From positions 1 through 64,000 of the forward strand of contig JBDREC010000049.1 of NCBI GenBank assembly GCA_043820105.1: a stretch of DNA of 64,000 bases, given 5' to 3'. The stretch is from JBDREC01 sp043820105 [NCBI: Pseudomonadota bacterium]. GTDB lineage: Bacteria > Bdellovibrionota_F > JAHFAK01. The notes beneath the pieces were generated by a model. It was not told the origin of the DNA, did no database searches, and was given only the letters and a program-made list of their open reading frames with translations. Positions 4,401 through 57,092 of the stretch are shown here, piece by piece (position 1 is the first letter of the stretch; each line of letters starts with the position of its first letter). The position numbers were made by a program, and so were the translations under genes.

Positions 4401-4610
4401 TATTCAATTCAATCCTTTCTTTAAAAGCTTTTCTATAGTCTAAATATTAATGATTTTTTAGTTGATATTGATATCTATAATATGCTAAAAATAATGCAGA
4501 CTGTAGTAATATTTTTAACATTTATTTGCTTTCTGTCCTAAAAAATGGGGGGTTATTTTTGTGATAGAGTTTTATCATTAAACAAATTGAATATTGTAAG
4601 GAGGATAATC

Positions 4611-6062: not shown

Positions 6063-6098
6063 GTTTTTTCTAATATTTAATAAAAGTTCAGGATCAGT

Positions 6099-7520
6099 AT
6101 GGCTAATGGTGTTATTTCCATTGAAAGAATAAGGGAAACAGAAAGGCTCAATGAATTTAGGGAATTTACTAGAGTTATAACAGGCTTTATGTCCTTTCCC
6201 TTATATCTTCTTTTTTGGCTTGCTGATCTTTTATATGCACCACACCTTAAATGGGAGTTTTTATTTCTTAGAGTATTAATTATTCCTGTTTGTATTTTTG
6301 TTTATTTTTCAATTAATAAAATAACTAAATTAAATCATGCTCAAATATTAGATACAATCTTATGTTTTGCAAATAGTATTTTAATTACTTTTATGATCTA
6401 TCTAACCGAAGGAGCCATTTCCCCTTATTACGCAGGTTTAAATCTAGTAGCAATACCAATTATAGCTTTTATTCCTTGGACCATGAAATTTTTGATTTTA
6501 AATATATCTTTGATTTATGGCCCCTTGATTTTAGGTATCTTCTTTTTTCCAAATGCAGTTACAGACTATGTTTTATTTATTTTAAATTTGTTTTTTATTT
6601 TTGGAACTATTGCTTTATCTTTAATAATTAGAGTTGATACAGAAAAACTTAGAAAAAAAGAAGTTGCAAGTAAGTTTTTACTAGAAAAGGATGTTAAATA
6701 TCGAGAAAAAATAATTGAAGAAAAAACAAATGAATCTTTAAAACTTAAAACTCTTACAAGGCAGTTTAGTCCTCAGGTTGTTCAGGCAATTTCAAGTGGA
6801 AAACTAGATATTATTAAATCAATTCACAGGGCTCAAATTTGCGCTATTTTTATTGATATTGTTGATTCAACTAAGCACATTGTGCACATTGATAAAGAAT
6901 CTGTTAATAAGGTGCTAACCCTTTTTATTGAAGATACAATGAAAGTTTTACTGAAATATGATATTACTTTAGATAAATTTTTAGGTGATGGAGTTTTAGC
7001 ATTTTCTAATGATCCAATCAAAAGAGTTGATTTTGTTGATAGGGTTATTTTAGCGGCAATGGAAATTAGAACCAGGATAAATAGGAGAAGTGAAGAGTAT
7101 AAAAAATCCTGGAAAGATGTCTTAGAAGTTCGCTTTGGAATTTCTTCTGGTTATGCTGATGTTGGTTTCTATGGCTCAGATAAAAGCTTTAAGTCCTATA
7201 CTGCAATTGGAAGAGTTATTGATTTAACAAAGTCTTTATCAGATGTTGGAGCGCCGGGACAGATAGTTGTGAGTCAAGATGTTACAAAGTTACTTTCAGA
7301 TTCTAAGTTTTTAATTAAAAAAATTGGTCATAAGAAGCTCAAGAGTTTTGAGTCAGATATTATTACTGTCTATGAAGTTGACAGTCTCAAGCTTGATTCA
7401 AGTATAGAAACAGCTGTTGAGAAATGTCCAAATGGTCATGGGATTTTACATTTAGAAATGAACATGAATGGTATATACATATTTAAATGTAGAACTTGCG
7501 GTTATGAATATTCTCTTTAA
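6099..7520 (+). CDS. Membrane class III nucleotide cyclase (copy 1; lacks transition-state residues)
   Basis: 473 residues: about six membrane helices (30-178), a coiled coil (180-215), a cyclase homology domain (240-420) and a C-terminal Cys/His ribbon (C-P-N-G-H ... C-R-T-C). Metal-binding Asp253 (F-I-D-I-V) and Asp297 (G-D-G) are present, as is base-selecting Lys293 with Thr368, pointing to a class IIIb adenylate-type enzyme. However, the usual Asn and Arg of the V-N-L-A-x-R-L motif are Asp375 and Ser379. A homodimer should therefore be poorly active or dead. The neighbour at 9046 has the opposite defect. It follows the methyltransferase by 36 bp and is likely co-transcribed. Confidence 0.85.
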   Translation: MANGVISIERIRETERLNEFREFTRVITGFMSFPLYLLFWLADLLYAPHLKWEFLFLRVLIIPVCIFVYFSINKITKLNHAQILDTILCFANSILITFMIYLTEGAISPYYAGLNLVAIPIIAFIPWTMKFLILNISLIYGPLILGIFFFPNAVTDYVLFILNLFFIFGTIALSLIIRVDTEKLRKKEVASKFLLEKDVKYREKIIEEKTNESLKLKTLTRQFSPQVVQAISSGKLDIIKSIHRAQICAIFIDIVDSTKHIVHIDKESVNKVLTLFIEDTMKVLLKYDITLDKFLGDGVLAFSNDPIKRVDFVDRVILAAMEIRTRINRRSEEYKKSWKDVLEVRFGISSGYADVGFYGSDKSFKSYTAIGRVIDLTKSLSDVGAPGQIVVSQDVTKLLSDSKFLIKKIGHKKLKSFESDIITVYEVDSLKLDSSIETAVEKCPNGHGILHLEMNMNGIYIFKCRTCGYEYSL

Positions 7521-7587
7521 TTTTTTAAAGAATTATTAATATTTTAAATTTATCATTGCATTTTTATTATTAAGGAAATCTTCATTT

Positions 7588-9030
7588 ATGAGTGATAATA
7601 ATCAATCTTTAGATGAACTAAATGATAATGATACTTTGTTAGTTTCTAATTTTATTATAAGACAGGATCGCTTTGAAGTATTAAATGAAAACTACTTTCT
7701 TAAAATAGGCAATGACACATATGAAGTAATCAATTATTCAAGTTTTGGCTTAGCTATACTACATTCTGAAGTTTTTAGCGATAGCTTTGATCAAATTGAA
7801 GCTGAATTTTTAATGAATAATGTGCTTATTAATAAACCTCTAATAAAGTTGATTAGACAAGAAAAGTATAATGATGAGCGATATCTAATTGCCTTTGAGC
7901 TTTTGTCAGAAGCATTGTCAATTGAAAGAATCAGTTTTATGGGTGATGTTGAAAAGTTGATTAAAAAGAACTGCTTTGAAGACAATAAATGGAGGGAGCT
8001 TCCTTTAGAATATAAAATCAAAGTCTTTGAACTTAAGGATTATTTATATAAGCTAAAAAATGAAATTGATTTAGTGGAAGCAGAAAATAATTCGTCCGAT
8101 CGTCAGGAGTGCTTGTCAGAGTTTAATAAGTCCTTTGTTTCAGTTTTTTCAAAGTTATTGTATAATCAGATTTCTTATTTTTGTTCTGGCATTTTTCCAA
8201 TTCTTAATAAACTTGATGAGGAAAAAAATAAAGAGGCCTTTAGCTTTTTTCATGAACACTTGAAATCTTTCATTAATAAATCAAAGTTAGCTTCTAAGAG
8301 TTTTAAAAAATCATCAAATCATGTTGGAGATCATGAATTATTTAGTTTGATCTACTCTAAAGAACTTTTTAGCCAATCATTATTTGATCAATGCATTGAA
8401 AGTTTTTTTATAAATCTACCGGAAGCAGAAGGCTTTAGAGAAAGGATAGAATATTTTAATAATTGGCTCATAGATGTTTTTAATAAAAATGAAAAGCAGG
8501 ATTTAAAAATATTATCTGTTGTCTCTGGATCAGCTATTGAGCTTAATAATTTATTAAGATCTAAGCAATTAAAATTAAAATACCCATTGGAGATTCATTG
8601 TATTGACCAGGATTTAAATGCCCTTAAACAAGCACAAGCAACTTTTAAAGAATTGCAGCTTGGAAAAGAAGCAATGATCAAATTTATATTTATACAAAAA
8701 AACATTTCCTCTATAATTAGCGCGAAATTTACAGATGATAATTATGATTACATTTATTCTGTAGGTCTTTTTGATTATCTTTCAGATCCTGTTGCTTCAT
8801 TAGCTGCTGTTAATCTGCTTAAGTATTTAAAAGAAGATGGAGAATTAGTAATTGGAAACTCTTCCTATGAAGCAAATAGAAAGCTTGAAATGATTTTTTT
8901 GCTCAAGTGGTATATTGTCCATAGGACTGAAAAGGATCTTTTAAAATTATTTAAGAAAATAACAAAAAAACTTCATATAGAACCATCAAAAGATAGTAAA
9001 AATAATTTTGTCTTTTTAAAAAGAAAGTGA
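7588..9030 (+). CDS. PilZ-like domain plus degenerate methyltransferase (copy 2)
   Basis: 480 residues, a paralogue of the protein at 4611 along its whole length. The PilZ-like part keeps R-Q-D-R and N-Y-S-S-F-G (49-54). The methyltransferase is eroded: the R-G-Y-A-G-D-Y-E signature has become S-N-H-V-G-D-H-E, and the SAM loop reads L-S-V-V-S-G-S-A. The acidic I-D-Q-D and the G-L-F-D-Y-L-S-D-P-V-A block are kept. It may still bind SAM, or act as a non-catalytic partner of copy 1. A ribosome site (AAGGAAA) precedes the ATG. The pair (this gene and the next) looks like a tandem duplication of 4611-7520. Confidence 0.7.
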   Translation: MSDNNQSLDELNDNDTLLVSNFIIRQDRFEVLNENYFLKIGNDTYEVINYSSFGLAILHSEVFSDSFDQIEAEFLMNNVLINKPLIKLIRQEKYNDERYLIAFELLSEALSIERISFMGDVEKLIKKNCFEDNKWRELPLEYKIKVFELKDYLYKLKNEIDLVEAENNSSDRQECLSEFNKSFVSVFSKLLYNQISYFCSGIFPILNKLDEEKNKEAFSFFHEHLKSFINKSKLASKSFKKSSNHVGDHELFSLIYSKELFSQSLFDQCIESFFINLPEAEGFRERIEYFNNWLIDVFNKNEKQDLKILSVVSGSAIELNNLLRSKQLKLKYPLEIHCIDQDLNALKQAQATFKELQLGKEAMIKFIFIQKNISSIISAKFTDDNYDYIYSVGLFDYLSDPVASLAAVNLLKYLKEDGELVIGNSSYEANRKLEMIFLLKWYIVHRTEKDLLKLFKKITKKLHIEPSKDSKNNFVFLKRK

Positions 9031-9045
9031 ATTAAAAAACCAAAT

Positions 9046-10470
9046 ATGAGTGCAGAAGTAAGTTCCATAGAAAAGCTAAGAGAAAAGGATCGTTTTGAAG
9101 AAATATTACGATTCATAAAGCTAAGTGTTTTTAAAATTGCACCTGCAATATTTTTAGCCTTTTGGTTTATTGATTGGCTTTTTGTTCCTCAAAAAAAGTG
9201 GGAATTGCTGGTTCTTAGATTTATGCTTATTCCATATTCTTTAATCTTTTCAGTTTTTTTAAATAAAGTTAAAACTATAGTAGAGGCTCAGATTCTTGGA
9301 ACTGCCTTGGTTTTATTCTATTCAATTAATTTAACACTGTGTATTTTTGTGTCTGGGGATGTTAGTTCCCCTTATTACGCCAGTCTTAATTTTATTACCA
9401 TAATTGCAATTGCCTTTGTTCCGTGGAGTAAAAAATTTCTAGTCTTTAATATTCTAATAATTTATGGTCCCTTTTATTTTGTTGCATTGGTTTTTTATAA
9501 TTATTTCTTTGGATACGTTCCCTTAATAATTAATTCATTTTTTATTGTTGGGACTGTTGTTATAAGCACCTTGATTCGATATTTTACTGAGAAGCTCAGG
9601 AAAAGTGAGGTTGTGGCCAAATATGTTTTAGAAAAAGAACTTAAATATAGAGAAAAAATAATTCAGCAAAAAACACAGGAAGCTTTAAAACTTGAAAATT
9701 TGACAAAACAATTTAGTCCACAAGTTGCTCATTACATTCTTAAGGAAGATAAACTTAAAATTGTTAACCAAGTTCACAGAGCCCAAATTTGTGCTATTTT
9801 TATAGACATTGTAGATTTCGCTGAAAGAATAGTTAGAGTTGATAAGGACGATGCAAATAAAGTTATTACAATGTTTTTAGATGAATCAATGGAAATTCTT
9901 TTAAAATATGATATTACTTTAGATAAATTTTTAGGCAGTGGAATTTTAGCATTTTCAAATGATCCCGTTGCTCATGATGATTATGTAGAAAGAGTTTTGC
10001 AGGCAGCAATTGAAATTAAAGAAAAAATAAGGCAAAATGAAGAAACTTATATTGAAAATTGGCTAAATGTTTTGCAGATACGAATTGGTATTTCTAGTGG
10101 CATTGCAGATGTTGGTTTCTATGGAACTGATGAAACATTCCAATCATACACTGCAATTGGTCAGGTTGTAAATTTAGCAGCAAGACTTTGCTATGCAGCA
10201 GAACCCGATCAAATTGTTATAAGTGAAGATATTAAAGAAAACTTACCTGTTAACAAATACGAATTTGAAAGAATTGGAGAAAAACCTCTAAAAGGTTTTG
10301 AAGGAAAATCCATATCCATCTATGGTCTTATTGGATACAAAGAAGAAACTTTTATTGATACTAATGTTAGAGAATGCCCAAATGGACATGGAATTTTACA
10401 TCTTGATTCAAATGAAAAGGGCATCTATGTTTTTAAGTGTCGAACCTGCAACTATCAGCAATCTCTTTGA
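9046..10470 (+). CDS. Membrane class III nucleotide cyclase (copy 2; lacks second metal Asp)
   Basis: 474 residues with the same layout as the cyclase at 6099: six membrane helices, coiled coil, cyclase domain and C-terminal zinc-ribbon-like C-P-N-G-H/C-R-T-C. First metal Asp254, Lys294, Thr369 and the transition-state pair Asn376 and Arg380 (V-V-N-L-A-A-R-L) are intact. The second metal Asp is replaced: G-S-G (Ser298) instead of G-D-G. In class III dimers the metal site comes from one subunit and Asn/Arg from the other, so this protein could complement copy 1 exactly. It starts 15 bp after the preceding stop, with a weak ribosome site. Confidence 0.85.
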   Translation: MSAEVSSIEKLREKDRFEEILRFIKLSVFKIAPAIFLAFWFIDWLFVPQKKWELLVLRFMLIPYSLIFSVFLNKVKTIVEAQILGTALVLFYSINLTLCIFVSGDVSSPYYASLNFITIIAIAFVPWSKKFLVFNILIIYGPFYFVALVFYNYFFGYVPLIINSFFIVGTVVISTLIRYFTEKLRKSEVVAKYVLEKELKYREKIIQQKTQEALKLENLTKQFSPQVAHYILKEDKLKIVNQVHRAQICAIFIDIVDFAERIVRVDKDDANKVITMFLDESMEILLKYDITLDKFLGSGILAFSNDPVAHDDYVERVLQAAIEIKEKIRQNEETYIENWLNVLQIRIGISSGIADVGFYGTDETFQSYTAIGQVVNLAARLCYAAEPDQIVISEDIKENLPVNKYEFERIGEKPLKGFEGKSISIYGLIGYKEETFIDTNVRECPNGHGILHLDSNEKGIYVFKCRTCNYQQSL

Positions 10471-14938: not shown

Positions 14939-15306
14939 AAATCCTCCCAAAAGTTAAATTCCCCAAACTAACTCTAAAAACACAAATGTATACAAATGTG
15001 TTAAACCAATAACGAAATTAGTATGTCTCACTTTTTTAAAATCCGTAAGAATTAATGACATTCAAAACTGCGCTAAAATCCTATTTAAGCATGTGCTTGC
15101 TGTTTAGTATCTCCCTAAATTTGGACTTAACCGGCAGCTTAGAAAATATTGACGTGTGTATAAGATTAAGAAAATCTACCATTCTCCCCAAAAAAAAAGC
15201 CCTGTATTGCTTATACAAAACCGGGCAACACTCATATAACACAGATCTTTTGCTATTGCAAGTAAAAAATCATAAGATCATGTAATGAAAACGCAAATAA
15301 GAATGG
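14939..15306. other. Intergenic region between divergent transcripts' ends and starts
   Basis: It contains the upstream region of the secreted protein (minus strand) and, at 15190-15226, the terminator of the peptide-maturation operon. A 76-codon plus-strand frame at 15055 has no ribosome site and runs through the terminator, so I do not call it. A 16-bp palindrome (ATAGCTCAAGAGCTAT, 15309-15324) spans the end of the next gene. Confidence 0.5.
15190..15226 (-). terminator. Rho-independent terminator of the MFS/peptidase/radical SAM operon
   Basis: On the minus strand GCCC...TGTAT pairs with ATACA...GGGC, followed by nine T. It lies about 80 bp beyond the MFS stop codon. Confidence 0.8.
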
Positions 15307-16587
15307 CTATAGCTCAAGAGCTATGTTTAAGGAGCTTTGCGCTAGTGTTGCTGTTTTATGCTTTGTGTGGAAGTAGGTAATAAAGAGCAATGATATAAGA
15401 ACAATTGGATAGTGACATAAAAAGACTGTTGTTGAAATAGGAAGAGCTTTCATGATTATTGGAACAATAATAAAACCAATTCCAAATCCTGTTCTTAATA
15501 CAAGGCTTGTTAAAGCAAACAGCTTGCCTCTAACTGCATCTTCGGATTTTTGAATATAACTGGTATAAAAGGTTTGGTATATACCATCTCCAAAACCTGC
15601 AATTAAAGCGGCTATAATAATTATTGGAATAAAGTTTGTTTGAAAAATTAATATCATGCCTGCTGACATAATTGCAGTAAAGCATAGATATAGGTTTTCT
15701 GCTTTTAGGCTTTTTAAGAATTTAGCCTTATTTAAAAACATAATACCTATAATATTACCTAGTCCCCAAAACATTAAAATTAAGCCATAAAAAAACATAG
15801 GTTTTTGAGGATCAAGATCTTTTGAAAATACTGGGAAACCAATGTTGTGCGATGCAGATGCAATGGCATCAAGAAATAGTATTGAAAGACAAATTATAAT
15901 TATATTAAAATTGTTTAAATTCGGAAGTTTTGAATAGTCATTTTTTAATTTATTAAATAGTGAGCAAGTCTTCTGGTTTTCCAGGACTTGACTACTTTTG
16001 ATTTGTGGTCTGGTGCTGAGTTTAATAAAAAAAAGTATAATTCCACTTATAAAATATGTAATTGAATCAAGAAAGAATATTGGATAATAATTCTTAAATA
16101 AATAATAAGCAAATACAGCTGCTAAGCCACTAAGGGCAAATGTTAAGTTCATGCCTCCCATTAATAAAGAGTTAGCCTTCATAGTATCTTTTTGATTTAA
16201 TATTGATGGAATGGATGCTCTCAAATTAATCTCAAATAAATTTGAAAAAACACCTATAAAAATCATCAAAAATAAAACATAGTATTTTATAACACTCTCA
16301 GGTACTATAAGTAAAAATGCTACTGCTACAGCCAAAACAAGATCTGAAGTTATCATTAGTTTTTTTCTATCAACTTTGTCTGATATATATCCTGAATAGG
16401 GCGCAGCTATAATTCCTGAAATTACTCTTGTTCCCATGGCGTATGCGATCCATAAGGGATCTTTTGTAAGTTCCAAAAGGAAAATATTAATCGCCATCAT
16501 ATTGAGAAATGAACCAAAGGTAGATCCAAGTCTAGAAATTAGTAGGATATAAAAATTTAGTGGCAGTTTATTATCTTTAGCTGTCAT
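15307..16587 (-). CDS. MFS transporter, probable exporter of the modified peptide
   Basis: 426 residues with about 12 membrane helices and the MFS loop motif G-Y-I-S-D-K-V-D-R-K-K between helices 2 and 3. It resembles the MFS_3/EntS-like drug and siderophore exporters in general layout. A GGAG site precedes the ATG. It is the last gene of the chain peptides-radical SAM-peptidase-MFS, starting 21 bp after the peptidase, and is followed by a strong terminator. The context suggests export of the mature peptide or self-protection. Substrate cannot be read from the sequence. Confidence 0.85.
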   Translation of the reverse strand: MTAKDNKLPLNFYILLISRLGSTFGSFLNMMAINIFLLELTKDPLWIAYAMGTRVISGIIAAPYSGYISDKVDRKKLMITSDLVLAVAVAFLLIVPESVIKYYVLFLMIFIGVFSNLFEINLRASIPSILNQKDTMKANSLLMGGMNLTFALSGLAAVFAYYLFKNYYPIFFLDSITYFISGIILFFIKLSTRPQIKSSQVLENQKTCSLFNKLKNDYSKLPNLNNFNIIIICLSILFLDAIASASHNIGFPVFSKDLDPQKPMFFYGLILMFWGLGNIIGIMFLNKAKFLKSLKAENLYLCFTAIMSAGMILIFQTNFIPIIIIAALIAGFGDGIYQTFYTSYIQKSEDAVRGKLFALTSLVLRTGFGIGFIIVPIIMKALPISTTVFLCHYPIVLISLLFITYFHTKHKTATLAQSSLNIALEL

Positions 16588-16608
16588 AGATTCTCCATAA
16601 AAAAATAT

Positions 16609-17775
16609 TCAGTTCGTCAAATGCAATATACTGTCTAATGAATGTTGATAATAAAGATATGGTAAGATATTTAAACCATGTTTTTTAATTAAATTTTCAA
16701 CGTAATAGCTGCCAATAGGATAACTTGGTGTATAAAATTTATCATCTTCTGTAAAGTAGTCAGTTCTTTGCTTTATCAAAGCATCAGAAAATAACATATC
16801 GTTTTTTAATATGTCAAAATATTTTCTGGAAATTTCTTTTTCTTCAATGTTTTTACTGTACCACATATTATAAAATAATTTATGTAAGAATTTTTCAATT
16901 TTTTGTGTTATTAAAACTCTTGATCCAAGCAGGTCTCCAAATATTAAATCTGAATTGACAGCTAAGCCTTCATTAATCATATTTTCTGGAGAATAAAAGG
17001 TATCTATAGAGCCTACTAAATCAATTTGGCTATTATCAATTTGATATTGTTTTATTAAATAGTATAAATGGTGTCCAGGGATAACCTCATGACAAATAAA
17101 AGCCTTAATAAATTCATCTGATAGATTGGACTTTATACAAATGCCAAGTGTTCCCTGATAGTTTCCGTCATAGTGGTAATAACAAGTTGGATCTTCTGGC
17201 CCACTTTCTATGATTTTAATTTTTGAATTAGATAAAATCTTTTCAAGGTCTAATTTGAAAAGAGCTGAATATTTCTGACTTGTTATTTCATAATATTTAC
17301 TTATTACTTTAGAAACATAGTTGCCTAAGTCATTTTTGTTTTTGAATAAAACTATTCGGTTTTCATTTTTAAATTCTTCTAAATTTTTATACCCTAAGTT
17401 ATATAGGTGAGAATTTAATTTATTTAATTCTTGTTCAATATTAAATTTAGGAATTAATTTAATTCCATGTAATTTTTCGACCGTGTCTTTAAAACTCGTG
17501 TTTTTGTAGTCATTAACAAAATAATCCGCTTGAGTTAGAATAGAGGTTAGGAGATCTTTAAAGTATGTTTCTCGGTGCTTTAAGTTAACAACAGTTGTTG
17601 ATTGATTGATTTCATATAGAATAGAGGATAGATTCCTGTAAGCATTTTTAAATGATATTTTGCTGGCATTATGTTCGATGTTTTTTGGGCCTATGTAGCT
17701 ATGAATAAATTCATAGTCTTCAAAAGAGCTTGAAAGTGCCAGAATGTTTTTAGTAATATCTTTGTAAATATCCAT
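16609..17775 (-). CDS. HExxPGHH zinc metallopeptidase (DUF885-like), cytoplasmic
   Basis: 388 residues without signal peptide. H-E-V-I-P-G-H-H at 229-236 and N-E-G-L-A-V with Glu269 give a gluzincin-type site (HExxxxH-like plus distant Glu). The PGHH variant is the hallmark of the DUF885 peptidase family, but this protein is shorter than the usual 550-600 residues. A Tyr/His-rich stretch (C-Y-Y-H-Y-D-G-N-Y) precedes the site. AAGGAAGAG lies before the ATG. It sits between the radical SAM enzyme (16 bp away) and the exporter, so a role in trimming the Lys-rich leader from the peptides is the natural inference. Confidence 0.8.
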   Translation of the reverse strand: MDIYKDITKNILALSSSFEDYEFIHSYIGPKNIEHNASKISFKNAYRNLSSILYEINQSTTVVNLKHRETYFKDLLTSILTQADYFVNDYKNTSFKDTVEKLHGIKLIPKFNIEQELNKLNSHLYNLGYKNLEEFKNENRIVLFKNKNDLGNYVSKVISKYYEITSQKYSALFKLDLEKILSNSKIKIIESGPEDPTCYYHYDGNYQGTLGICIKSNLSDEFIKAFICHEVIPGHHLYYLIKQYQIDNSQIDLVGSIDTFYSPENMINEGLAVNSDLIFGDLLGSRVLITQKIEKFLHKLFYNMWYSKNIEEKEISRKYFDILKNDMLFSDALIKQRTDYFTEDDKFYTPSYPIGSYYVENLIKKHGLNILPYLYYQHSLDSILHLTN

Positions 17776-17791
17776 ATGTCTCTTCCTTTGT

Positions 17792-18856
17792 CTAAAGTGT
17801 AGATTCTACAATGTGCTTGTAGCAATATTCATTTTTATATATTGATTTATGCAAAGAATAGGCCATGGATAGGCATCCGGCTTTACATTCTTCGTGTGAG
17901 CTACAGTTTTGACAGTTGCCTTCCATTTGTTTTGGATCATAATTTCTTGTATATGCAAAGCAATTATCATCATACCAAATATCTTTTAATGATCTATTTC
18001 TAACATTTCCAGCAGAGAACTTATCATCTTGCAGTGAAAGACAACCCTTAACATTTCCATTTGACTCAATTCCTAATACATATTTTCCAGCACTACAGCC
18101 ATCCCAGGTAGCGCCATCTAAGAGCTTGTCAATTTTATCATGGCAATAACCCATCGAGTCTGCTATTGTTATCTTAATTTTATCTCCATACTCTTCTTTC
18201 CATTTTAATATATCATTTGTTAATTCTACTAATTGATTTTTTTCAACAATTAGACTCTCAGCGTTTTTGCCCGCTCTACCAAAGGAGTTAACGATTTGTA
18301 CCTGCCAGATATCAACACCTTTATCCATGAGAATCTTTAATATATCCGCTCTTTGTGCAAAGTTTAATTTATTAAAGGAGGTGACGATACCAACTCTGTA
18401 ATTATTTTCTTGGCACATATCTATAACATTCATGACATTATTATACGCACCTTTATACTGTCTAATATAATCATGAGTATTTTCATTTCCATCAAGGCTG
18501 ATTGCAATATGTGTTGATTTTTTGCTTTTTAAGAATCTGATGTCATCTTCAGTGATTTGAGCTCCATTGCTAATTATGCTGATTTCAGAATAATCATCAT
18601 TTTCTGATTTAATATAATTTACTAATTCTCTCCAATGAGGATACATGAAGGGTTCTCCCCCTGAAAGAGTAAAGTATTTGGCTTTAAGGGATTTTAATTC
18701 ATCTATTACTTTTTTCCATTCATTTAAATTTAAGCTATTTGCACGATTTTGTCCATTAGCATAAGATCCACAATGGATACATCTCATATTACAGGCAAGA
18801 GTTACCTCTAGGGCAACAGCATATGGAAAGAATTTATCATCTACATATAGAGGCAT
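17792..18856 (-). CDS. Radical SAM/SPASM peptide-modifying enzyme
   Basis: 354 residues. C22-x3-C26-x2-C29 (A-C-N-M-R-C-I-H-C) binds the SAM [4Fe-4S] cluster, and G-G-E-P lies at 66-69. The C-terminal SPASM domain has the expected Cys set: D-G-C-S, V-K-G-C-L, G-N-C-Q-N-C, E-E-C-K-A-G-C and Y-C-Y, enough for two auxiliary clusters. This is the architecture of RiPP maturases such as PqqE, MftC and sactipeptide enzymes. No N-terminal peptide-recognition (RRE) domain is seen and no separate one is nearby. It begins 81 bp after peptide 1, behind AAGGAG. Chemistry on the R-P-x-Y core is unknown. Confidence 0.9.
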   Translation of the reverse strand: MPLYVDDKFFPYAVALEVTLACNMRCIHCGSYANGQNRANSLNLNEWKKVIDELKSLKAKYFTLSGGEPFMYPHWRELVNYIKSENDDYSEISIISNGAQITEDDIRFLKSKKSTHIAISLDGNENTHDYIRQYKGAYNNVMNVIDMCQENNYRVGIVTSFNKLNFAQRADILKILMDKGVDIWQVQIVNSFGRAGKNAESLIVEKNQLVELTNDILKWKEEYGDKIKITIADSMGYCHDKIDKLLDGATWDGCSAGKYVLGIESNGNVKGCLSLQDDKFSAGNVRNRSLKDIWYDDNCFAYTRNYDPKQMEGNCQNCSSHEECKAGCLSMAYSLHKSIYKNEYCYKHIVESTL

Positions 18857-18893
18857 GTTAATCTCCTTTGAAGTTTAAATCAAATTTAGCAAG

Positions 18894-18926
18894 AGGCAAA
18901 GCCGCTTTTAAAAAGCAGCTTTGCCT
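18894..18926 (-). promoter_or_regulatory. Intercistronic hairpin between peptide 1 and the radical SAM gene
   Basis: AGGCAAAGC (18894-18902) pairs with GCTTTGCCT (18918-18926), with further inner pairing GCTTTT/AAAAGC. On the minus strand only a weak T content follows. It could be an attenuator or mRNA-stabilising element, so that peptides are made in excess over the enzymes. Confidence 0.6.
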
Positions 18927-18937
18927 TTTGAAAAAAC

Positions 18938-19009
18938 CTAGAAATCAGCAAGAATGACATAAGTTGGTCTTAGTGCCTTTTTCTTACTTTTCTTATTTGA
19001 TTTTTTCAT
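18938..19009 (-). CDS. Putative RiPP precursor peptide 1 (23 residues)
   Basis: Translation: ATG, then a Lys/Ser-rich leader (K-K-S-N-K-K-S-K-K-K), then A-L-R-P-T-Y-V-I-L-A-D-F and stop. A strong GGAGGGAG site precedes the ATG. The last 13 residues match two other peptides within 500 bp: K-(K/R)-A-(L/I)-R-P-x-Y-aliphatic-aliphatic-L-x-D. It lies directly upstream of the radical SAM/SPASM gene on the same strand. Short conserved peptide, variable basic leader and adjacent maturase are what a RiPP precursor gene looks like. The invariant Tyr, Arg, Pro and Asp are candidate modification sites. Confidence 0.75.
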   Translation of the reverse strand: MKKSNKKSKKKALRPTYVILADF

Positions 19010-19037
19010 GTCTCCCTCCAAAATTTCGTTTGGGAAA

Positions 19038-19075
19038 TAAAAAAAGGTGCTTCTTTAATAAATAAAGAAACACCT
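19038..19075 (-). terminator. Rho-independent terminator after peptide 2
   Basis: On the minus strand AGGTGTTTCTTTA pairs with TAAAGAAGCACCT and is followed by a T-run (TTTTTTTATTT). It sits between peptide 2 and peptide 1, so expression of peptide 1 and the enzymes would need read-through. This would favour peptide over enzyme. Confidence 0.75.
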
Positions 19076-19082
19076 AAAAAGC

Positions 19083-19163
19083 TTAATCTGTTAACATCAG
19101 GTAAAAAGGTCTTAAAGCTTTCTTGACTGCTTTTTTCTTGGCCTTTTTTGTCGCTTTTTTCAT
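19083..19163 (-). CDS. Putative RiPP precursor peptide 2 (26 residues)
   Basis: Leader M-K-K-A-T-K-K-A-K-K-K-A-V-K-K, then A-L-R-P-F-Y-L-M-L-T-D and stop. It ends one residue after the shared Asp position lacks the final aromatic seen in the other two. AAGGAG precedes the ATG. About 95 bp upstream is a sigma-54 promoter, and a strong terminator lies just downstream, so this is likely the most abundantly transcribed of the set when the regulator is active. Same motif as peptides 1 and 3. Confidence 0.75.
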   Translation of the reverse strand: MKKATKKAKKKAVKKALRPFYLMLTD

Positions 19164-19269
19164 AATGGACTCCTTTTAATAAAGGGTTACTAAAAACTTG
19201 CTTTTATACGGAAGAACCTTAGCTTGTTTTGACCAAAGTGTTTTCCAAAAGCCTTGAGAATGAGCATTT

Positions 19270-19286
19270 TGCAAGTAATATGCCAT
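19270..19286 (-). promoter_or_regulatory. Sigma-54 promoter of the peptide operon
   Basis: On the minus strand TATGGCAT and CTTGCAA give GG-N10-GC with TGGC at -24 and TTGCA at -12, close to the consensus. Predicted start is near 19259, leaving about 95 nt of leader before peptide 2. A sigma-54 enhancer-binding protein is encoded immediately upstream, ending 81 bp before peptide 3. Confidence 0.75.
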
Positions 19287-19415
19287 AGCAAAAGAGACCA
19301 TTGGTTTTCGTATAAGCGTTTAAATTTAAAGGCAAAACTCTATTGTATTCGTGTTTGGGTTATATTTGATTCGAAAGATAAGGTGTCGTTATGATACTTT
19401 AGGAGCAGAAATTTG

Positions 19416-19499
19416 CTACCAGTCAAGTAAGATATATTCAGGTCTTATTGCTCTTTTTTTTAATGATTTGTTTTTCTTGGATTGCTTATTGTTTTCCAT
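19416..19499 (-). CDS. Putative RiPP precursor peptide 3 (27 residues)
   Basis: Leader M-E-N-N-K-Q-S-K-K-N-K-S-L-K-K-R, then A-I-R-P-E-Y-I-L-L-D-W and stop. The core aligns with peptides 1 and 2 with the gap before Asp shortened by one residue. A perfect GGAGG site lies seven bases before the ATG, and a sigma-70-type promoter (19522-19550) precedes it. It is separated from peptide 2 by about 250 bp holding the sigma-54 promoter. It may therefore be expressed constitutively, unlike the other two. Confidence 0.75.
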   Translation of the reverse strand: MENNKQSKKNKSLKKRAIRPEYILLDW

Positions 19500-19521
19500 T
19501 TGATTCCCTCCGAGTTTATTG

Positions 19522-19550
19522 ATTATAAAAATACGAAAGCTAAATTACAA
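19522..19550 (-). promoter_or_regulatory. Sigma-70-type promoter of peptide 3
   Basis: TTGTAA (-35, 19545-19550) and TATAAT (-10, 19522-19527) on the minus strand are 17 bp apart. Predicted start is just before the GGAGG ribosome site. Confidence 0.6.
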
Positions 19551-19580
19551 AGAAAAAATTAAATTGCAAGAATAAATATT

Positions 19581-22500
19581 TTATTTGTTAACTTTGATAT
19601 CATACTTTATTATTTTTGAACTCAGTGTTTTTTTATCAATTGCCAGTATCTTAGCCGCTTGAGATTTATTCCCATCTGTTTCTTTTAATACATTTTCAAT
19701 TGCTAATTTTTCAACATCACATAATCTTTTTCCCTTAAATACTATTTGATTACTAATGTTATATTTAGTGCTATCAATGAGAGAAGTATCTATGACATTT
19801 GAATTAGAAAGATAGATTAGTTTTTTAATTTCATTTTCAAGTTCTCGAATATTTCCAGGCCAGCTGTAGCTTTTAAAATTATCAATTAATTTTTTATCAA
19901 AAACTTTCGCTTGTTTTAGACTGTGTTTATTTAGAAAATGTTCTATTAATAAAGGAATGTCTTCTGGACGCTCTCTTAATGAAGGGAGCTTTATATGGAT
20001 TACATTCAGTCTAAAATATAAATCTTGCCTAAAGGTTTCTGTTTTTGTCATTTCTAAAAGATCTCTATGTGTAGCTGAAATTATTCTTACATCCACGTTA
20101 TATATTTTATTTCCACCAACACGGCGTATCTTTTTTTCCTGAATCGCTCTTAAAAGCTTTTTTTGCATTGAAATAGGCATATCGCCGACTTCATCTAAAA
20201 ACAAAGACCCCTCATGAGCAAGCTCAAAGAGGCCACGTTTGTCTATATTCGCATCTGTATACGCTCCTTTAACATAACCAAAAAGTTCAGTTTCAAGAAT
20301 TGATTCTGTAAGAGCGGAACAGTTTTCAGCAAAAAAAGGTTTCTCAGTTCTGTTTCCATTATAGTGAATTGCTCTTGCTATTAATTCTTTTCCTGTACCA
20401 CTTTCTCCTGTAATTAAGACTGAAATGTCTGAATCTTTTACTTTATCAATAGTTTCAAATATTTTAAACATGCTTGTGCTTTGAGTAATTATATTTCTAT
20501 AATCATAGTCCTGGATTTCATTTCGTTTACTTAGTTCCAGGGCTTCTTTGGTTTTTTCATAGTTTTCTTCTGTGACTATAAGCCTCTCTTTTACAGCGCT
20601 TGCTTCAGTATTAATTTTAATGTTTTCCTGAGCTAGTTGTTTTAAGTGTTTTGTGTTTGAAATTGCGATTGAAACTTGGCTGGCAAAAGTTAACATAAGT
20701 TCTTTGTCAATATTATCAAAAGCCGCTATTTTTGTAGGGTCATCTAAATAAATTAAACCAGCTACTTTATTATTTTCAACAATCGGTAGAGATAAAACGC
20801 TTTTTAGATTTGAAGCCTGTATGCTGTGAGCTTCTGTAAAATTTTCAATTGCATTTGAAATTTTCAATACGTTTTCTTTTAAAAAGGTATTTTGGATGAT
20901 TGTGTTACTAATTTGATCAGTGTATTGTTTAATATCTTCTTTGTGAATGTTTCTTGCAGCTAAGACTTGAAAGCTTGTAAGGGTAGATAGATCTATTGTT
21001 TCAGTTGGTACAGCTTCTTTGAGTATTATAAATCCACGTTTGGCATCTGAAAATAGGATTGCGTTGTCTAGAATAAGATTTAATAAACGATTTAAATCTT
21101 TTTCCTGTGAGAGGCTTAAATTAATTTCAAAAATCTTGTGTAATTTATTTATGTCAGAAAAGCCATCACGATCAAGTTTTATCATTGATAGAAGTTCTTT
21201 AGCAGAAGAAACTTTCGGTAAGAGATTAAAGTTTGATAAATTTGTAACTAGAATATGTTCTTCTATGCTTGCTATTGTGTTTTGCAAGAGCTTGCTATAT
21301 TCTTCAAGTTTTAAAACATTTTTAGTGAAAAAATACAGTCTTGTAAAAGCTTCGTAATATGATATTTTCATTAATGGATAAAGTTCATCAGCATTTATTG
21401 ATTCAATTTGATCTAAAAAATCTTTAGCTTTTAATGGACTTTCTTTATCAAGCTCTATATTTGCTTTTATTATATTTGTTTCAATGTTGATAATTACATT
21501 CTTGTCTAAAAGCTCAGTTGCTTTTTTTAATAAAGAATATGTTTTATCAATGTTTCCTTGCTTCTTTTCTAATAAGGCTAGGTTTGTGTAGATATCCGCC
21601 ATTCCACTTTTATTGTTTGTTTCCTTAAAAAGTTCAAGGGCTTTATCATAATTTTCCTTACAGCGTTCTATATCATTTTTATTGAATGCGAGGTCAGCCA
21701 GCAAGGAATAGTTGGATGCTAATAATAGTTTGTTATTTCGTTTCTTTGATAAGGCCAATGATTCATTTGCATAATAGCTTGAGTTATCAATATCTCCCAT
21801 CATTGAATAAATTAATGCTATGTTGAAAGTTGCAGTTTCTGTTTCCCTTGGTTTGTCAAGGTTTTCAAGAATATCAAAAGATTCTTTATAAGATTCTAAT
21901 GCTTCTTGTAAAAGCCCCATTCTTAATTGGTTTGAACCAATATTCAAACATTGCTGCGCCTTTTTCCTTATTTGATGAAATTCTTCAGAAATATTGAGCG
22001 CTTCTTTATGCCAATTTATTGCATCTTCTAAGTGGCCAAGCATAGTTGAACTTAAGCCCATGTTGTTTAAAGATGCAATGATGCCACTTTGTTCCTTCAG
22101 TAAACATGCAAAGTCATATGAAAGTTTGAACTCTTCGATACTTTTCTCGAAATTTCCTGAATAATAATTTAGCAGTCCAGAAAGGTTATATAATTTGATT
22201 TTATGAAAATCTTCTAGGATTTCTTTTGCTTTTAATTCATTTAGAATTAATTTGCAGGCTTCGAATTGAGATTGTCCCATTAAAGCTGAAACCTTGAGCA
22301 ATAGAAGCTCTGTTTTTTTGTTATCATTTTGATTTTCACAGGCTTTTAGAATTGCCATATCATAAATTGAAATTCCTTCTGAATATATACCTTTATTTGT
22401 TTTAATTTGTCCCTTGAGTTTCAAAAGATCAAGCTCTTGGTTTGGGTTTAGCTCAAATAAACTCAAACCATTTGCATGTGTTTCTGCGGTATTATAATCA

Positions 22501-25466
22501 CCTGTAAATAATGTAATTTTGACCAATTCAAAAAGAGTGTTGATTTTTAGAGCTTCCTTTTCTTTTGTGTCAATTGCTCCAAGGGAGTTTATGATGATAT
22601 TGTAATAATTAGTTGCTCCTAACAAAAAACCTTTTGAAAAATTGCTCTGGGCCAGTTTGTTATATATTCGCAATGCCTCCATGTTATCTTTTGCAAGTAG
22701 TAGGTGATTCGCTATCTTTTCTTCTTGCTTTTCAGTGCTATAATCAAAGGATTCTAACTCTTGTGCTATTGCTTTATGAATAAGGCTAGCTTCTTTAGAT
22801 GGAATTAAATCACTAATGATTTGCTTTGAAAACTCATCGCTAATGGAGAATAGTTTGTTTGCTTTTGTTAAAATAATTTCATTATCAGATTTTATTTCAT
22901 ATGAAGTGCTTAGAAAGTTTTTTGAATATAAATAATCCAGTTTTAATAAAAGCTCTGGTTTTGATAAAGGATAATTAATTTTAATTAAGATTGTTGAGAT
23001 TGACTCAATTGTTAAGGGTAAATCAAATAGGGTGCTTATAAAAAGAATTTTTTGACCTTCCTTGTCTAATGACTTTACTCTTAAGCTTATAGCTTCTGCA
23101 ATGTCCTTTGGGTAACCTGTTGGAATTCGATGCAATGCAATTGATTCATTTTTAATTAAAATTTGAGCTTTTGAAATTAAATATGGAATTAGTGTTGTAA
23201 TATAAGCAGGGTTTCCGCCTGATGCTTTGAAGACATAATCAAGAAAATCATTTGATATACTTTTATTGAAAATATCCTCAAGCAATGAATTAGTTTCTTT
23301 TCTTGAGAGCCTTTCAAGTTCAAATGATTCCACTTTAATGTGTCTGGAAGCTTTAGATAAAAAAGTATCAAGCAAAATATGCTTTTTAGCTAGATCACTG
23401 TTCAGTGAAAAGAAAAACAAAATATTTGATTTATGTTCTTTAATTGAATCAAATAAGAACCTCAAAAAAATTATTGCAATTTTATTAATGTTTTCACATT
23501 TATCAAAATAAATTAGCGTATCACTATTTCCAATCCTTGATATAAATGTATCAGAGAGCTTTTTAATGAAAGTTGTTGTGTCAGTTAGTTTTACATCGCC
23601 TGATTGCTCATCATTTTCTATTTCTAAGGTTATTGAACATGAACAAAAATCTATAATATCTTGTAAGGAATAGAATTTGATAAAGCTAAAGCTTTTAGAA
23701 TTAATCTCACTTAAATTTGCTTGGTTTATAAATTCATTAATTATTCTGGTTTTGCCAGAACCAGTTTCTCCAACAATAGTTATTATTACCTTGTCAGATT
23801 TGGTTTTTATTTTAGAAAAAACAATATCAAAGTTATTTTGAATTTTTCTTAAAAGCTCATGATTGCCAGTTAAAGATGCCTGTTTTATTGTTAACTTTCC
23901 ACTTAATTCTTGTTTGCTTAAAAGGGAATTCTCAAAAAAATTATTAAGTTCCTTAAGTATTTCACCTTCATTCTGATATCTATCTTTTGAATTATAGGCC
24001 GTCATTTTTGAAATAATGTTACAAAATTCTAGAGGCAAATCCTTTTTTACATAATTTAATTTTATATATTCATTATTTTTTATATCATTTAAATATTCAT
24101 CAAAGGTGCTTGTTGAAAATGGAAAGCTTTTTGTTATTATATGGTAAATGCTCATACCAAAGGAGTAAAGGTCTGATGATGCACTTTCCTTTTTTTGAAG
24201 CAAAATTTCTGGATCAATAAAAAAATTAGTTCCCTTTATTTTAGCTTCTGAGTCCTTGACTAAACCAAAATCTATCAACCTCAGCTCAATAAAACCTTCT
24301 TTGCTTTTTGAAAAGAGAATGTTTGAAGGATTAATGTCGTGATGCTTTATGTTTTTATCTTTCATCACTACAAGTAAAGCTAGGATGTTTGACATAATAG
24401 CATAAATATCCTTTGGTTTTAGTTTGCCAGCATAATGACTTAAGTTTGGAGTTTCAAAATATTCCATTGTAAAGTAATAGCTTTTATTTTCACCATAGAA
24501 AGCAAAATCATAAACCTGAGGAAGCAAGGGATGTTTAAGTTCTTTAAGTAAAATAAATTCATCTTTGAAGGCTTTAATATTTTCTCTAGTATTATTTTCT
24601 TCTTTTAATAGTTTTAGTGCAATAAAAGTTTTCTTGCTTAAATCAAAAGCTAAATAAATATTGCTACTCAGACCTTTTCCTATAAGCTTTTCGATTCTAT
24701 ATCTTTGTCCAATATATTTGATAAGTTTATAATCAACATTGATTTCTTTTTGAAGTTGCAGGTCCTGCGATTTCAGTTTTAGTATAGAATTACATTCAGC
24801 TGGCATGTATTCTTTAAATTTATTAAAAATATATTTAAAATGAGGTCTTGTTAAACCCTTTTTTGAAGAGGTTTCAAATAAAAATCCCCTTTTTGTGCTT
24901 TGCAAAGCCTTTATTCCACGTTTCAGGCTGTTTTCATATTTATTTTCATTGAAAAAGAAATATTCAAATTCTTTTTTAGGAGGGATTTTTATGCCAATTT
25001 TATCATCTGTAATTAATATATCTTGTTTCTTTAGTTTAGAGATCTTATCTGTGTTAAGTCCACAAAGAACATATAATAAAAAAATTGTCTTTCTATTGTC
25101 ATCAACATGCTCAATTTTATCCAAAAATCCTTCAATTTTATCTTTTGGTAGGTAAACAAGAGCTTGCTTTTGCTTGTTTTTAAGACTTTTCCCCAAATCT
25201 TTTAATTCAAAAGCTTGCGACAAGTATTTGAAAAATAATTTTAATGAGGATATATAAAGGTTATATGTATGAGCAGAATACCCTTTTTTTTCAACATCAT
25301 CTAAAAACAATTTAAGATTTTCAAGAGTCAATTCACCAGGATCCTTGAAGCCTGAAAAAAACTTTTCAAGGTCATTGAGTTTCTTTTTATATAGCTCAAT
25401 AGTACCCTTATTGCATTTCTTCCTTTTTTCAAGGCTTAAAATAAACTCAGCAATTACTTTTTTCAT
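19581..25466 (-). CDS. Giant chimeric sigma-54 regulator: recombinase-like/kinase/ATPase/TPR/GAF/AAA+/Fis
   Basis: 1,961 residues from ATG 25466; a TTG 25 codons earlier is also possible. Order: (1) 1-230, tyrosine-recombinase-like, SAM-like core-binding part well formed, but the catalytic Arg position reads G-L-N-T-D-K-I and no Tyr site is seen. (2) 255-515, Ser/Thr kinase: G-K-G-L-S-S, A-L-K-L, H-H-D-I-N-P-S-N, D-F-G. (3) about 535-860, STAND-like ATPase with G-E-T-G-S-G-K-T. (4) long TPR array. (5) GAF. (6) AAA+ sigma-54 domain with G-E-S-G-T-G-K-E and G-A-Y-T-D-A in place of GAFTGA, F-L-D-E-V-G-D and W-P-G-N-I-R-E-L-E. (7) Fis-type helix with N-K-S-Q-A-A-K-I-L. Kinase-ATPase-TPR-GAF-sigma-54 chains are known; the recombinase-like head is unusual. 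It probably switches on the peptide operon. Confidence 0.88.
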   Translation of the reverse strand: MKKVIAEFILSLEKRKKCNKGTIELYKKKLNDLEKFFSGFKDPGELTLENLKLFLDDVEKKGYSAHTYNLYISSLKLFFKYLSQAFELKDLGKSLKNKQKQALVYLPKDKIEGFLDKIEHVDDNRKTIFLLYVLCGLNTDKISKLKKQDILITDDKIGIKIPPKKEFEYFFFNENKYENSLKRGIKALQSTKRGFLFETSSKKGLTRPHFKYIFNKFKEYMPAECNSILKLKSQDLQLQKEINVDYKLIKYIGQRYRIEKLIGKGLSSNIYLAFDLSKKTFIALKLLKEENNTRENIKAFKDEFILLKELKHPLLPQVYDFAFYGENKSYYFTMEYFETPNLSHYAGKLKPKDIYAIMSNILALLVVMKDKNIKHHDINPSNILFSKSKEGFIELRLIDFGLVKDSEAKIKGTNFFIDPEILLQKKESASSDLYSFGMSIYHIITKSFPFSTSTFDEYLNDIKNNEYIKLNYVKKDLPLEFCNIISKMTAYNSKDRYQNEGEILKELNNFFENSLLSKQELSGKLTIKQASLTGNHELLRKIQNNFDIVFSKIKTKSDKVIITIVGETGSGKTRIINEFINQANLSEINSKSFSFIKFYSLQDIIDFCSCSITLEIENDEQSGDVKLTDTTTFIKKLSDTFISRIGNSDTLIYFDKCENINKIAIIFLRFLFDSIKEHKSNILFFFSLNSDLAKKHILLDTFLSKASRHIKVESFELERLSRKETNSLLEDIFNKSISNDFLDYVFKASGGNPAYITTLIPYLISKAQILIKNESIALHRIPTGYPKDIAEAISLRVKSLDKEGQKILFISTLFDLPLTIESISTILIKINYPLSKPELLLKLDYLYSKNFLSTSYEIKSDNEIILTKANKLFSISDEFSKQIISDLIPSKEASLIHKAIAQELESFDYSTEKQEEKIANHLLLAKDNMEALRIYNKLAQSNFSKGFLLGATNYYNIIINSLGAIDTKEKEALKINTLFELVKITLFTGDYNTAETHANGLSLFELNPNQELDLLKLKGQIKTNKGIYSEGISIYDMAILKACENQNDNKKTELLLLKVSALMGQSQFEACKLILNELKAKEILEDFHKIKLYNLSGLLNYYSGNFEKSIEEFKLSYDFACLLKEQSGIIASLNNMGLSSTMLGHLEDAINWHKEALNISEEFHQIRKKAQQCLNIGSNQLRMGLLQEALESYKESFDILENLDKPRETETATFNIALIYSMMGDIDNSSYYANESLALSKKRNNKLLLASNYSLLADLAFNKNDIERCKENYDKALELFKETNNKSGMADIYTNLALLEKKQGNIDKTYSLLKKATELLDKNVIINIETNIIKANIELDKESPLKAKDFLDQIESINADELYPLMKISYYEAFTRLYFFTKNVLKLEEYSKLLQNTIASIEEHILVTNLSNFNLLPKVSSAKELLSMIKLDRDGFSDINKLHKIFEINLSLSQEKDLNRLLNLILDNAILFSDAKRGFIILKEAVPTETIDLSTLTSFQVLAARNIHKEDIKQYTDQISNTIIQNTFLKENVLKISNAIENFTEAHSIQASNLKSVLSLPIVENNKVAGLIYLDDPTKIAAFDNIDKELMLTFASQVSIAISNTKHLKQLAQENIKINTEASAVKERLIVTEENYEKTKEALELSKRNEIQDYDYRNIITQSTSMFKIFETIDKVKDSDISVLITGESGTGKELIARAIHYNGNRTEKPFFAENCSALTESILETELFGYVKGAYTDANIDKRGLFELAHEGSLFLDEVGDMPISMQKKLLRAIQEKKIRRVGGNKIYNVDVRIISATHRDLLEMTKTETFRQDLYFRLNVIHIKLPSLRERPEDIPLLIEHFLNKHSLKQAKVFDKKLIDNFKSYSWPGNIRELENEIKKLIYLSNSNVIDTSLIDSTKYNISNQIVFKGKRLCDVEKLAIENVLKETDGNKSQAAKILAIDKKTLSSKIIKYDIKVNK

Positions 25467-25556
25467 ATATGGAACTTTTGGATAGTTTAACAAAATATAT
25501 CGTATATGATAGTAAAATAATTGATGAAAAGCAAGTGGCAACTTGTTTGGAATCCG

Positions 25557-52645: not shown

Positions 52646-52661
52646 TAATGAAGTCTCCACA

Positions 52662-54965: not shown

Positions 54966-54975
54966 ATATCCCCAA

Positions 54976-55013
54976 CATAGCGTACAGTGTACAGCGTACG
55001 GCGTATAGTGTAC
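54976..55013. repeat. GCGTACAGTGTACA micro-repeat
   Basis: TAGCGTACAGTGTACAGCGT followed by ACGGCGTATAGTGTACTG: four degenerate units of GTACAGC/GTATAGT in the leader of paralogue B. Confidence 0.7.
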
Positions 55014-55037
55014 TGTTGTTTTTTACCCTTCTATATT

Positions 55038-55067
55038 ATTATAACATAAATATGTAGAATTTGTCAA
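55038..55067 (-). promoter_or_regulatory. Strong promoter of paralogue B (TTGACA-18-TATAAT, extended -10)
   Basis: TTGACA at 55067-55062 and TATAAT at 55043-55038 on the minus strand, 18 bp apart, with TGT before the -10 box. Confidence 0.8.
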
Positions 55068-55145
55068 AAAAAGTGAGCTAAATTTCATTGGCAATTAGTG
55101 AATGAATACATGGCGTTATTGGTAGGGGTTTGGTTTTTTTTATGT

Positions 55146-57053: not shown

Positions 57054-57092
57054 TAAGCCCCAAACTCTTGATAAAAATATGCTTTTCAAACA

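Follow-up and report, generated by a model that had tools for sequence, protein, structure and literature searches.

The RPxY peptide operon

The stretch of DNA analysed here, referred to as the window, comprises 64,000 nucleotides (positions 1 to 64,000 of the forward strand) of contig JBDREC010000049.1 from the bacterium JBDREC01 sp043820105. It carries an operon of three tiny peptide genes followed by genes for a radical S-adenosylmethionine (SAM)/SPASM enzyme, a protein with the motif HEVIPGHH and a transporter of the major facilitator superfamily (MFS), an order seen by open reading frame (ORF) listing and domain scans (Table 1). The operon is compared below with the spliceotide systems, in which, according to PMC10533398, the radical SAM splicease PlpXY removes tyramine at X-Y-G sites. 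An earlier note, made from the sequence letters, had described three same-strand genes of 23, 26 and 27 codons, each with a ribosome site, and the three genes that follow them. All were found in place on the minus strand, the following genes being identified by Pfam E-values (1.4e-22 for the radical SAM and 2.2e-9 for the SPASM domain of the enzyme) and by the HEVIPGHH motif.

Table 1. Features of the peptide operon and its surroundings in the window
Feature	Position	Strand	Remarks
Peptide gene 1, MENNKQSKKNKSLKKRAIRPEYILLDW	19416-19499	minus	27 aa; X = Glu before Tyr; ribosome site CGGAGGG
Peptide gene 2, MKKATKKAKKKAVKKALRPFYLMLTD	19083-19163	minus	26 aa; X = Phe; ribosome site AAGGAG
Peptide gene 3, MKKSNKKSKKKALRPTYVILADF	18938-19009	minus	23 aa from ATG; X = Thr; ribosome site GGAGGGAG
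Hairpin between peptide gene 3 and radical SAM gene	18857-18937	minus	z -4.7
Radical SAM/SPASM maturase, splicease-like	17792-18856	minus	354 aa; Pfam, profiles, trees
DUF885-like putative metallopeptidase, HEVIPGHH ... NEGLAV	16609-17775	minus	homologue in 7/7 relatives
MFS transporter, probable exporter	15307-16587	minus	homologue in 6/7 relatives
Terminator-like hairpin with T run	19045-19075	minus	between peptide genes 2 and 3
Ser/Thr kinase / ATPase / TPR / GAF / sigma54-activator protein	19581-25541	minus	1986 aa; directly upstream; domain scans

The three peptides share K-[KR]-A-[LI]-R-P-x-Y, the core which the earlier note had pointed out, and a GGAG-type ribosome site stands before each of their genes; for peptide gene 3 a longer open frame was also listed, starting from an upstream TTG at 19021. 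A Pfam scan of the three peptides gave no match above the cut-off, DUF1843 included. The core is not a product of chance, as none of 5,000 dinucleotide shuffles of positions 18857-19580 held an open frame of up to 80 aa with [KR]A[ILV]RPxY, and no such frame was found in 47 control loci around related enzymes (321,053 bases). In the entire window the pattern occurs in three open frames, which are exactly the three peptide genes. A looser pattern, [AVG][LIVM]RPxY, matches one extra ORF with GLRPSY (minus strand, 58355-58477) that overlaps an ORF on the opposite strand (58212-59273); this was taken as a chance match.

Conservation in Elusimicrobiota

A first frame of enzyme relatives was made up of loci from plasmids, one phage contig and bacterial contigs, the last giving 10 loci. 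When 247 genomes of the Elusimicrobiota, the phylum of the genome carrying locus L013, were searched with a profile, 31 had a related enzyme at an E-value of 1e-60, and two of the fetched loci were close, with 51% identity to the window enzyme. A second search, of 340 Elusimicrobiota genomes with a profile of this close subfamily at 1e-90, found the close enzyme in seven (47-53% identity to the window enzyme), while four of 398 Bacillota genomes had distant enzymes at 1e-60. The threonyl-tRNA synthetase encoded in the window reaches at most 61% identity in 149 Elusimicrobiota genomes, 141 of which gave a match, and 51 and 53% in two Bacillota genomes. Single-protein scans of genome contigs and viral contigs gave no relative, nor did an alignment scan of viral contigs with the RPxY subfamily; other alignment scans of viral contigs returned the phage locus L006 (twice) and four distant radical SAM loci. 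In L006 (phage contig IMGVR_UViG_3300036983_000059, 5962-8100) a splicease-like radical SAM enzyme, 32% identical to that of the window, lies among apparent phage structural genes and adjoins ORFs in which a PKWGSG motif recurs along with Gly/Ser-rich stretches.

An RPxY peptide gene lies upstream of the enzyme gene at all seven Elusimicrobiota loci, the peptides ranging from 14 to 33 aa across the set. Six were obtained by a scan of the loci (MKTKKKRAIRPTYIASM, MKKKRAVRPYYIIEP, MKKRAVRPYYIIEP, MKKRAIRPVYVVIA, MNKIQKTAKKRAVRPAYQKLG, MAKAKAKKKVKKVIKKKKGTKKRAVRPYYLENP), and the seventh, MKKRAVRPYYIIEY, which the pattern scan missed, was recognised by reading. The earlier note had proposed looking for such ORFs beside homologues of the enzyme and had named a lack of conservation outside this genome as the result that would speak against it; the peptides are present in seven further genomes. 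All ten peptides, three from the window and seven from its relatives, hold [KR]-A-[ILV]-R-P-X-Y, with 4-23 mostly Lys/Arg-rich residues before the core Ala, and X in the relatives is Tyr, Thr, Val or Ala. The HExxPGHx homologue follows the maturase throughout, the L077 copy being truncated where its contig stops. As for the MFS gene, the L077 contig does not reach it, the L078 contig breaks off within it, and a gap of about 1.5 kb parts it from the HExxPGHH-type gene in L076.

The core Ala, Arg, Pro and Tyr are invariant over the ten peptide genes and are written with 4, 5, 4 and 2 codons respectively. In L075, L076 and L079 the nine core codons differ by synonymous changes alone, and differences over all pairs of the ten genes number 166, 79 and 272 at the first, second and third codon positions. 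The three tiny ORFs of the window are genuine peptide genes.

A separate Elusimicrobiota group of related radical SAM enzymes, about 30-35% identical, is found at 25 loci (L037-L061). A scan of these that required a ribosome site and set motifs gave no convincing precursor, with fewer than 310 bases upstream available in L040, L046 and L053.

Kinship with spliceotide systems

The position of the enzyme was examined in two trees, the first of 42 enzymes and the second of 38 with long branches removed. L083, L006, L012 and L020, left out of the second owing to long branches or doubt, are included in the first, and L015 was excluded as a near copy of L002. The enzymes of the window and the seven Elusimicrobiota loci form one RPxY clade of eight rows (support 100/100) on a long stem (1.17 changes per column in tree 1 and 1.37 in tree 2). 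The wider clade that holds them excludes MftC and TIGR04053 (98/98 in tree 1, 99/98 in tree 2), and in tree 1 PqqE also lies outside, on a very long branch. A PlpX/DUF1843-type clade stands beside the group joining the RPxY clade with other enzymes (95/91, 95/88); RPxY is separated from those others by a weaker fork (89/86, 85/81).

The precursor survey covered 21 distinct loci that belong to the wider clade but not to the RPxY group, with L037-L061 set aside. At least one X-Y-G was found at 15 of these (L001, L002, L003, L005, L012, L014, L016, L017, L018, L019, L021, L022, L035, L036 and L071/L087), and one, L029, has M-Y-N in its place. L014, L018 and L019 have GG leaders with repeated KYG/LYG, L002 and L016 have MYG, and L035 and L036 KYGV/AYGV repeats, while the L087 peptide possesses a nitrile-hydratase-like leader (by reading) and a GG motif and ends in YLAYGVP. 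L070, L071 and L072 had been tagged 'XYG_other' in tree 2 by position, before their wider flanks were viewed; a precursor was seen only in L071 (= L087). With precursors at the neighbouring lineages and the tree positions taken together, X-Y-G systems lie on both sides of the RPxY clade when an outgroup root is used.

Some of these loci deserve separate mention. In L035 (1155-1421) and L036 (997-1476) the Elusimicrobiota ORFs with repeated [AK]-Y-G-V lie directly before the radical SAM gene and are candidate multi-site X-Y-G precursors. The Clostridium locus L012 (5152-10968) encodes a 48-aa peptide ending in LIAYGAGDIADECEE, a radical SAM enzyme, a 665-aa product and PDZ-like and MFS-like proteins, the last names being given by reading.

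Residues were compared over 22 enzymes (8 RPxY, 5 PlpX/DUF1843 and 9 Bacillota) and five outgroup rows. G30, Q185, Q187, G236, G262, S274 and N342 are constant in all 22 and W251 and G271 in 21, none of them occurring in the outgroup enzymes; Y344 is found in 21 and in one of the five. Cysteines 254, 272, 315, 318, 324, 328 and 345 are constant, as would be expected of a SPASM domain that carries two additional clusters. Position 342 is Asn in the 22 rows and in L035 and L036, and Asp in eight aligned precursor-less Elusimicrobiota enzymes, a correlation only with the presence of a precursor.

The best named profile of the window enzyme is TIGR03913, the 'GDL motif peptide-associated' maturase, at 181 bits against a cut-off of 591.75, and solved relatives by sequence are SkfB and 15 others, all distant. 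TIGR03913 loci resemble the operon in having several small upstream genes, and some copies of the associated DUF1843 (PF08898) carry RPMYM, RPYG or KPYG. Unlike the window-type peptides of 14-33 aa, which have their Tyr near the C-terminus, the DUF1843 proteins seen have 54-70 aa and a Tyr near the N-terminus; with this score and no DUF1843 in the three window peptides, the operon falls outside that family. DUF1843 proteins beside a PlpX-like enzyme in Azospirillum contain RPMYM and YPMYM and DUF1843-type proteins of Aureibacter MYA and LYA, which shows that PlpX-like systems differ in what follows the Tyr, processing of these Tyr not being implied. A comparison of L001, L003 and L005, which have DUF1843 genes, and L022 showed about 48% identity between the enzymes associated with DUF1843 and the Nostoc nif11-class enzyme, and DUF1843 proteins are for this reason possible splicease substrates with the Tyr near the N-terminus.

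Bacillota X-Y-G loci (Agathobacter, Blautia, Acetivibrio, Herbivorax and others) have enzymes 31-37% identical to that of the window, and in Agathobacter, as by reading in Blautia and Lachnospiraceae NK3A20, an MFS gene follows the radical SAM gene. They differ from the window in their X-Y-G cores, some of which lie behind GG or nitrile-hydratase-like leaders, and Acetivibrio and Herbivorax also in a C39-like ABC (ATP-binding cassette) exporter (by reading).

PlpXY, from Pleurocapsa sp. PCC 7319, can dispense with the leader when offered a ten-residue tag, and it was employed with a minimal PlpA2 core of 10 residues that contains GYG (PMC10533398). Table 1 of that paper gives the tags PIRPGYGLPI and PIRPLYGLPI, the PIRP tags presumably representing the PlpA2 core, and another, AVAAGYGVV. 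Their I-R-P-[L/G]-Y is matched by I-R-P-E-Y, L-R-P-T-Y and L-R-P-F-Y in the window, so that the statement of the earlier note that no known radical SAM class of ribosomally synthesised and post-translationally modified peptides (RiPPs) has this core does not hold. In PMC11002830, PlpX is placed in IPR026482, its partner PlpY is described as a truncated RiPP recognition element, leaders are of nitrile-hydratase or Nif11 type, and excision at X-Y-G yields an alpha-keto amide; spliceotide products inhibit proteases, according to PMC11117315 and PMC10373908. Judged by a Nostoc TIGR04103 enzyme taken as its stand-in, which is 28% identical to that of the window, PlpX would be a SPASM radical SAM enzyme of the same wider clade as the window enzyme. 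We take PlpX to be a member of TIGR04103, and IPR026482 presumably denotes the same family.

The RPxY system most likely works like a spliceotide system, with the radical SAM enzyme probably modifying the peptides at their one conserved Tyr. Rather than a family that stands alone, it is best regarded as a divergent relation of the spliceotide systems; of the new RiPP family suggested by the earlier note, the precursor-like peptides beside the enzyme and Tyr as the likely site are retained, and the lack of kin is given up. From the gene order, conservation, motif and phylogeny seen in the sequences, we have moderate confidence that the operon encodes a divergent splicease-like system whose products would be alpha-keto-beta-amino peptides; these would plausibly be exported and inhibit proteases. 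Among the papers listed in the open-access literature on Elusimicrobiota RiPPs, DUF885 with radical SAM, PlpX/PlpY/XYG, spliceotides and splicease/tyramine, which does not take in the main 2022 spliceotide genome-mining study (Chem), possibly listing some of these enzymes, no account of the RPxY system was found.

Several findings weigh against a splicease-like function. The main doubt lies in the missing Gly, as all ten peptides have I, L, V or Q after the Tyr, whereas the described PlpX sites are X-Y-G; a different chemistry is conceivable for this reason. The operon has a DUF885-like protein and an MFS transporter instead of PlpY, no PlpY-like ORF being present among its peptide, radical SAM, DUF885-like and MFS genes (by ORF listing of these genes, no PlpY profile being run) and no PqqD-like domain in the proteins scanned, though such a partner may be encoded elsewhere in the genome; and the peptides have no Nif11 or nitrile-hydratase leader. 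Lacking the Gly, PlpY and a leader of either type, the system was not filed as a spliceotide in the strict sense. TIGR04103, the second named profile, is reached at 164 bits, far below its cut-off of 725. In the FtsZ table of PMC10533398 only two variants were spliced, each with PIRPGYGLPI inside a longer frame; the others, those with PIRPLYG included, were unspliced. Nor do all PlpX tags contain R-P, as AVAAGYGVV indicates. No precursor was found at five of the 21 surveyed loci (L004, L006, L020, L070 and L072, the last two near contig ends), and the scans were uneven: some accepted a Tyr only if G, A, N or S came next, a bias towards X-Y-G (L014, L018, L019, L087), and others relied on ORF listing without a Tyr filter or on annotated genes. 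The clade signature, N342 and often S274 excepted, is mostly present too in the eight precursor-less Elusimicrobiota enzymes and thus marks kinship, not activity.

It is possible, if doubtful, that the enzyme belongs to the same clade and performs another Tyr chemistry, such as cross-linking or oxidation involving for example the Arg or the following aliphatic residue, tyramine excision having been lost or never present; this would be a new class with unusually small precursors. The aliphatic residue or Gln in place of Gly, the separate clade on its long stem and the DUF885-like partner gene are consistent with this. On the other hand, the enzyme lies between X-Y-G lineages and has the constant residues of the clade, the peptides keep the [IL]-R-P-X-Y of the PlpXY tags, and the residue after Tyr varies in the Azospirillum DUF1843 proteins also, whether or not these are modified.

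MftA and PqqA are small precursors with an essential Tyr, and their maturases MftC and PqqE are likewise of the SPASM radical SAM type. A redox cofactor like pyrroloquinoline quinone (PQQ) or mycofactocin could accordingly be imagined, its Tyr decarboxylated or joined to a neighbour, then freed by the DUF885-like peptidase and moved by the MFS protein. The very small precursors with a single conserved Tyr, the peptidase-like gene in the operon and the mycofactocin maturase as third-best named profile (142 bits against a cut-off of 265) speak for such a product, which we consider unlikely nevertheless: X (E, F, T, Y, V, A) and the tail after Tyr vary, one operon holds three differing copies, and MftC, outside the wider clade in both trees, and PqqE lack Q185, Q187 and N342. 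The PqqE profile gives 113 bits against a cut-off of 381, and no PqqD-like domain was found in the neighbouring window proteins scanned.

Less probable again is that the tiny ORFs are regulatory leader peptides for transcription attenuation of the radical SAM gene rather than substrates. At all eight loci a short ORF, lying 66-110 nt ahead of the first ATG in frame with the enzyme gene, is followed by a predicted hairpin between the (last) peptide gene and the enzyme gene, and at seven the hairpin is better than 200 shuffles (z -3.9 to -6.6; in L080, z -1.05, 24 of 200 shuffles were equally good). It is the amino acids and not the codons that are kept, though; the window has three copies, leader lengths vary, and the core looks like a substrate known for a related enzyme. 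Non-coding or chance ORFs, which would account for the very small sizes and for L075, where alone among the ten genes a clear GGAG-type ribosome site is missing, are rejected on the shuffles, the control loci, the presence of peptides at 7/7 close-enzyme loci and the synonymous changes.

Neighbouring genes and possible function

The HEVIPGHH protein is a putative metallopeptidase by its motif, H-E-x-x-P-G-H and NEGLAV being invariant in six full-length relatives and the window protein. Five of seven alignment members match PF05960 (DUF885) with E-values no higher than 1, the lowest being 2.8e-4; the window protein is not among them. No solved relative was found by sequence, the sole match (E 0.37) being chance, and structure prediction from the single sequence was unusable (mean pLDDT, the predicted local distance difference test score, 33.6). 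The 1986-aa protein upstream is a possible regulator of the operon. Upstream of peptide gene 1 no convincing sigma-54 site was seen, and sigma-70-like sites (e.g. 19550-19522) number 31 against 25 expected from shuffles. Terminator-like sites in 15200-19700 number two against a mean of 1.7 in shuffles, a count not above background.

Elsewhere in the window, 50471-57089 holds three tandem ORFs with long Gly-Asp runs, two of which read as having RCC1-like repeats, and 4545-10470 a duplicated pair of a methyltransferase-like and an adenylate-cyclase-like membrane protein (names by reading).

If the operon is splicease-like, one to three Lys/Arg-rich peptides would be produced in excess over the enzyme, the hairpin between peptide and enzyme genes possibly being an attenuator that favours the former. 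The DUF885-like protein may trim the basic leader or process the peptide otherwise; leader removal is a guess, and a cut inside the core is conceivable. The MFS protein would then export a product of about ten residues. For peptide 3 this would be ALRP-(keto-homo-Thr)-VILADF, with or without leader, and peptides 2 and 1 would give the Phe and Glu analogues. An alpha-ketoamide after Arg-Pro-X could capture serine or cysteine proteases reversibly through a covalent bond, with X setting the specificity, and the three copies may be aimed at three protease kinds.

A splicease of this type would take nearly leaderless 14-residue substrates with a bulky residue after Tyr, widening the rules for backbone ketoamides in protein labelling and protease inhibition and providing a very small tag; an enzyme that is not a splicease would bring new Tyr chemistry to a well-studied superfamily. 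Tentatively, these operons may represent a separate radical SAM peptide class with genes down to 14 codons, defined by non-excision Tyr chemistry at R-P-X-Y-aliphatic or by tyramine excision beside a bulky residue, through which uncultured bacteria might export sets of protease inhibitors of differing specificities.
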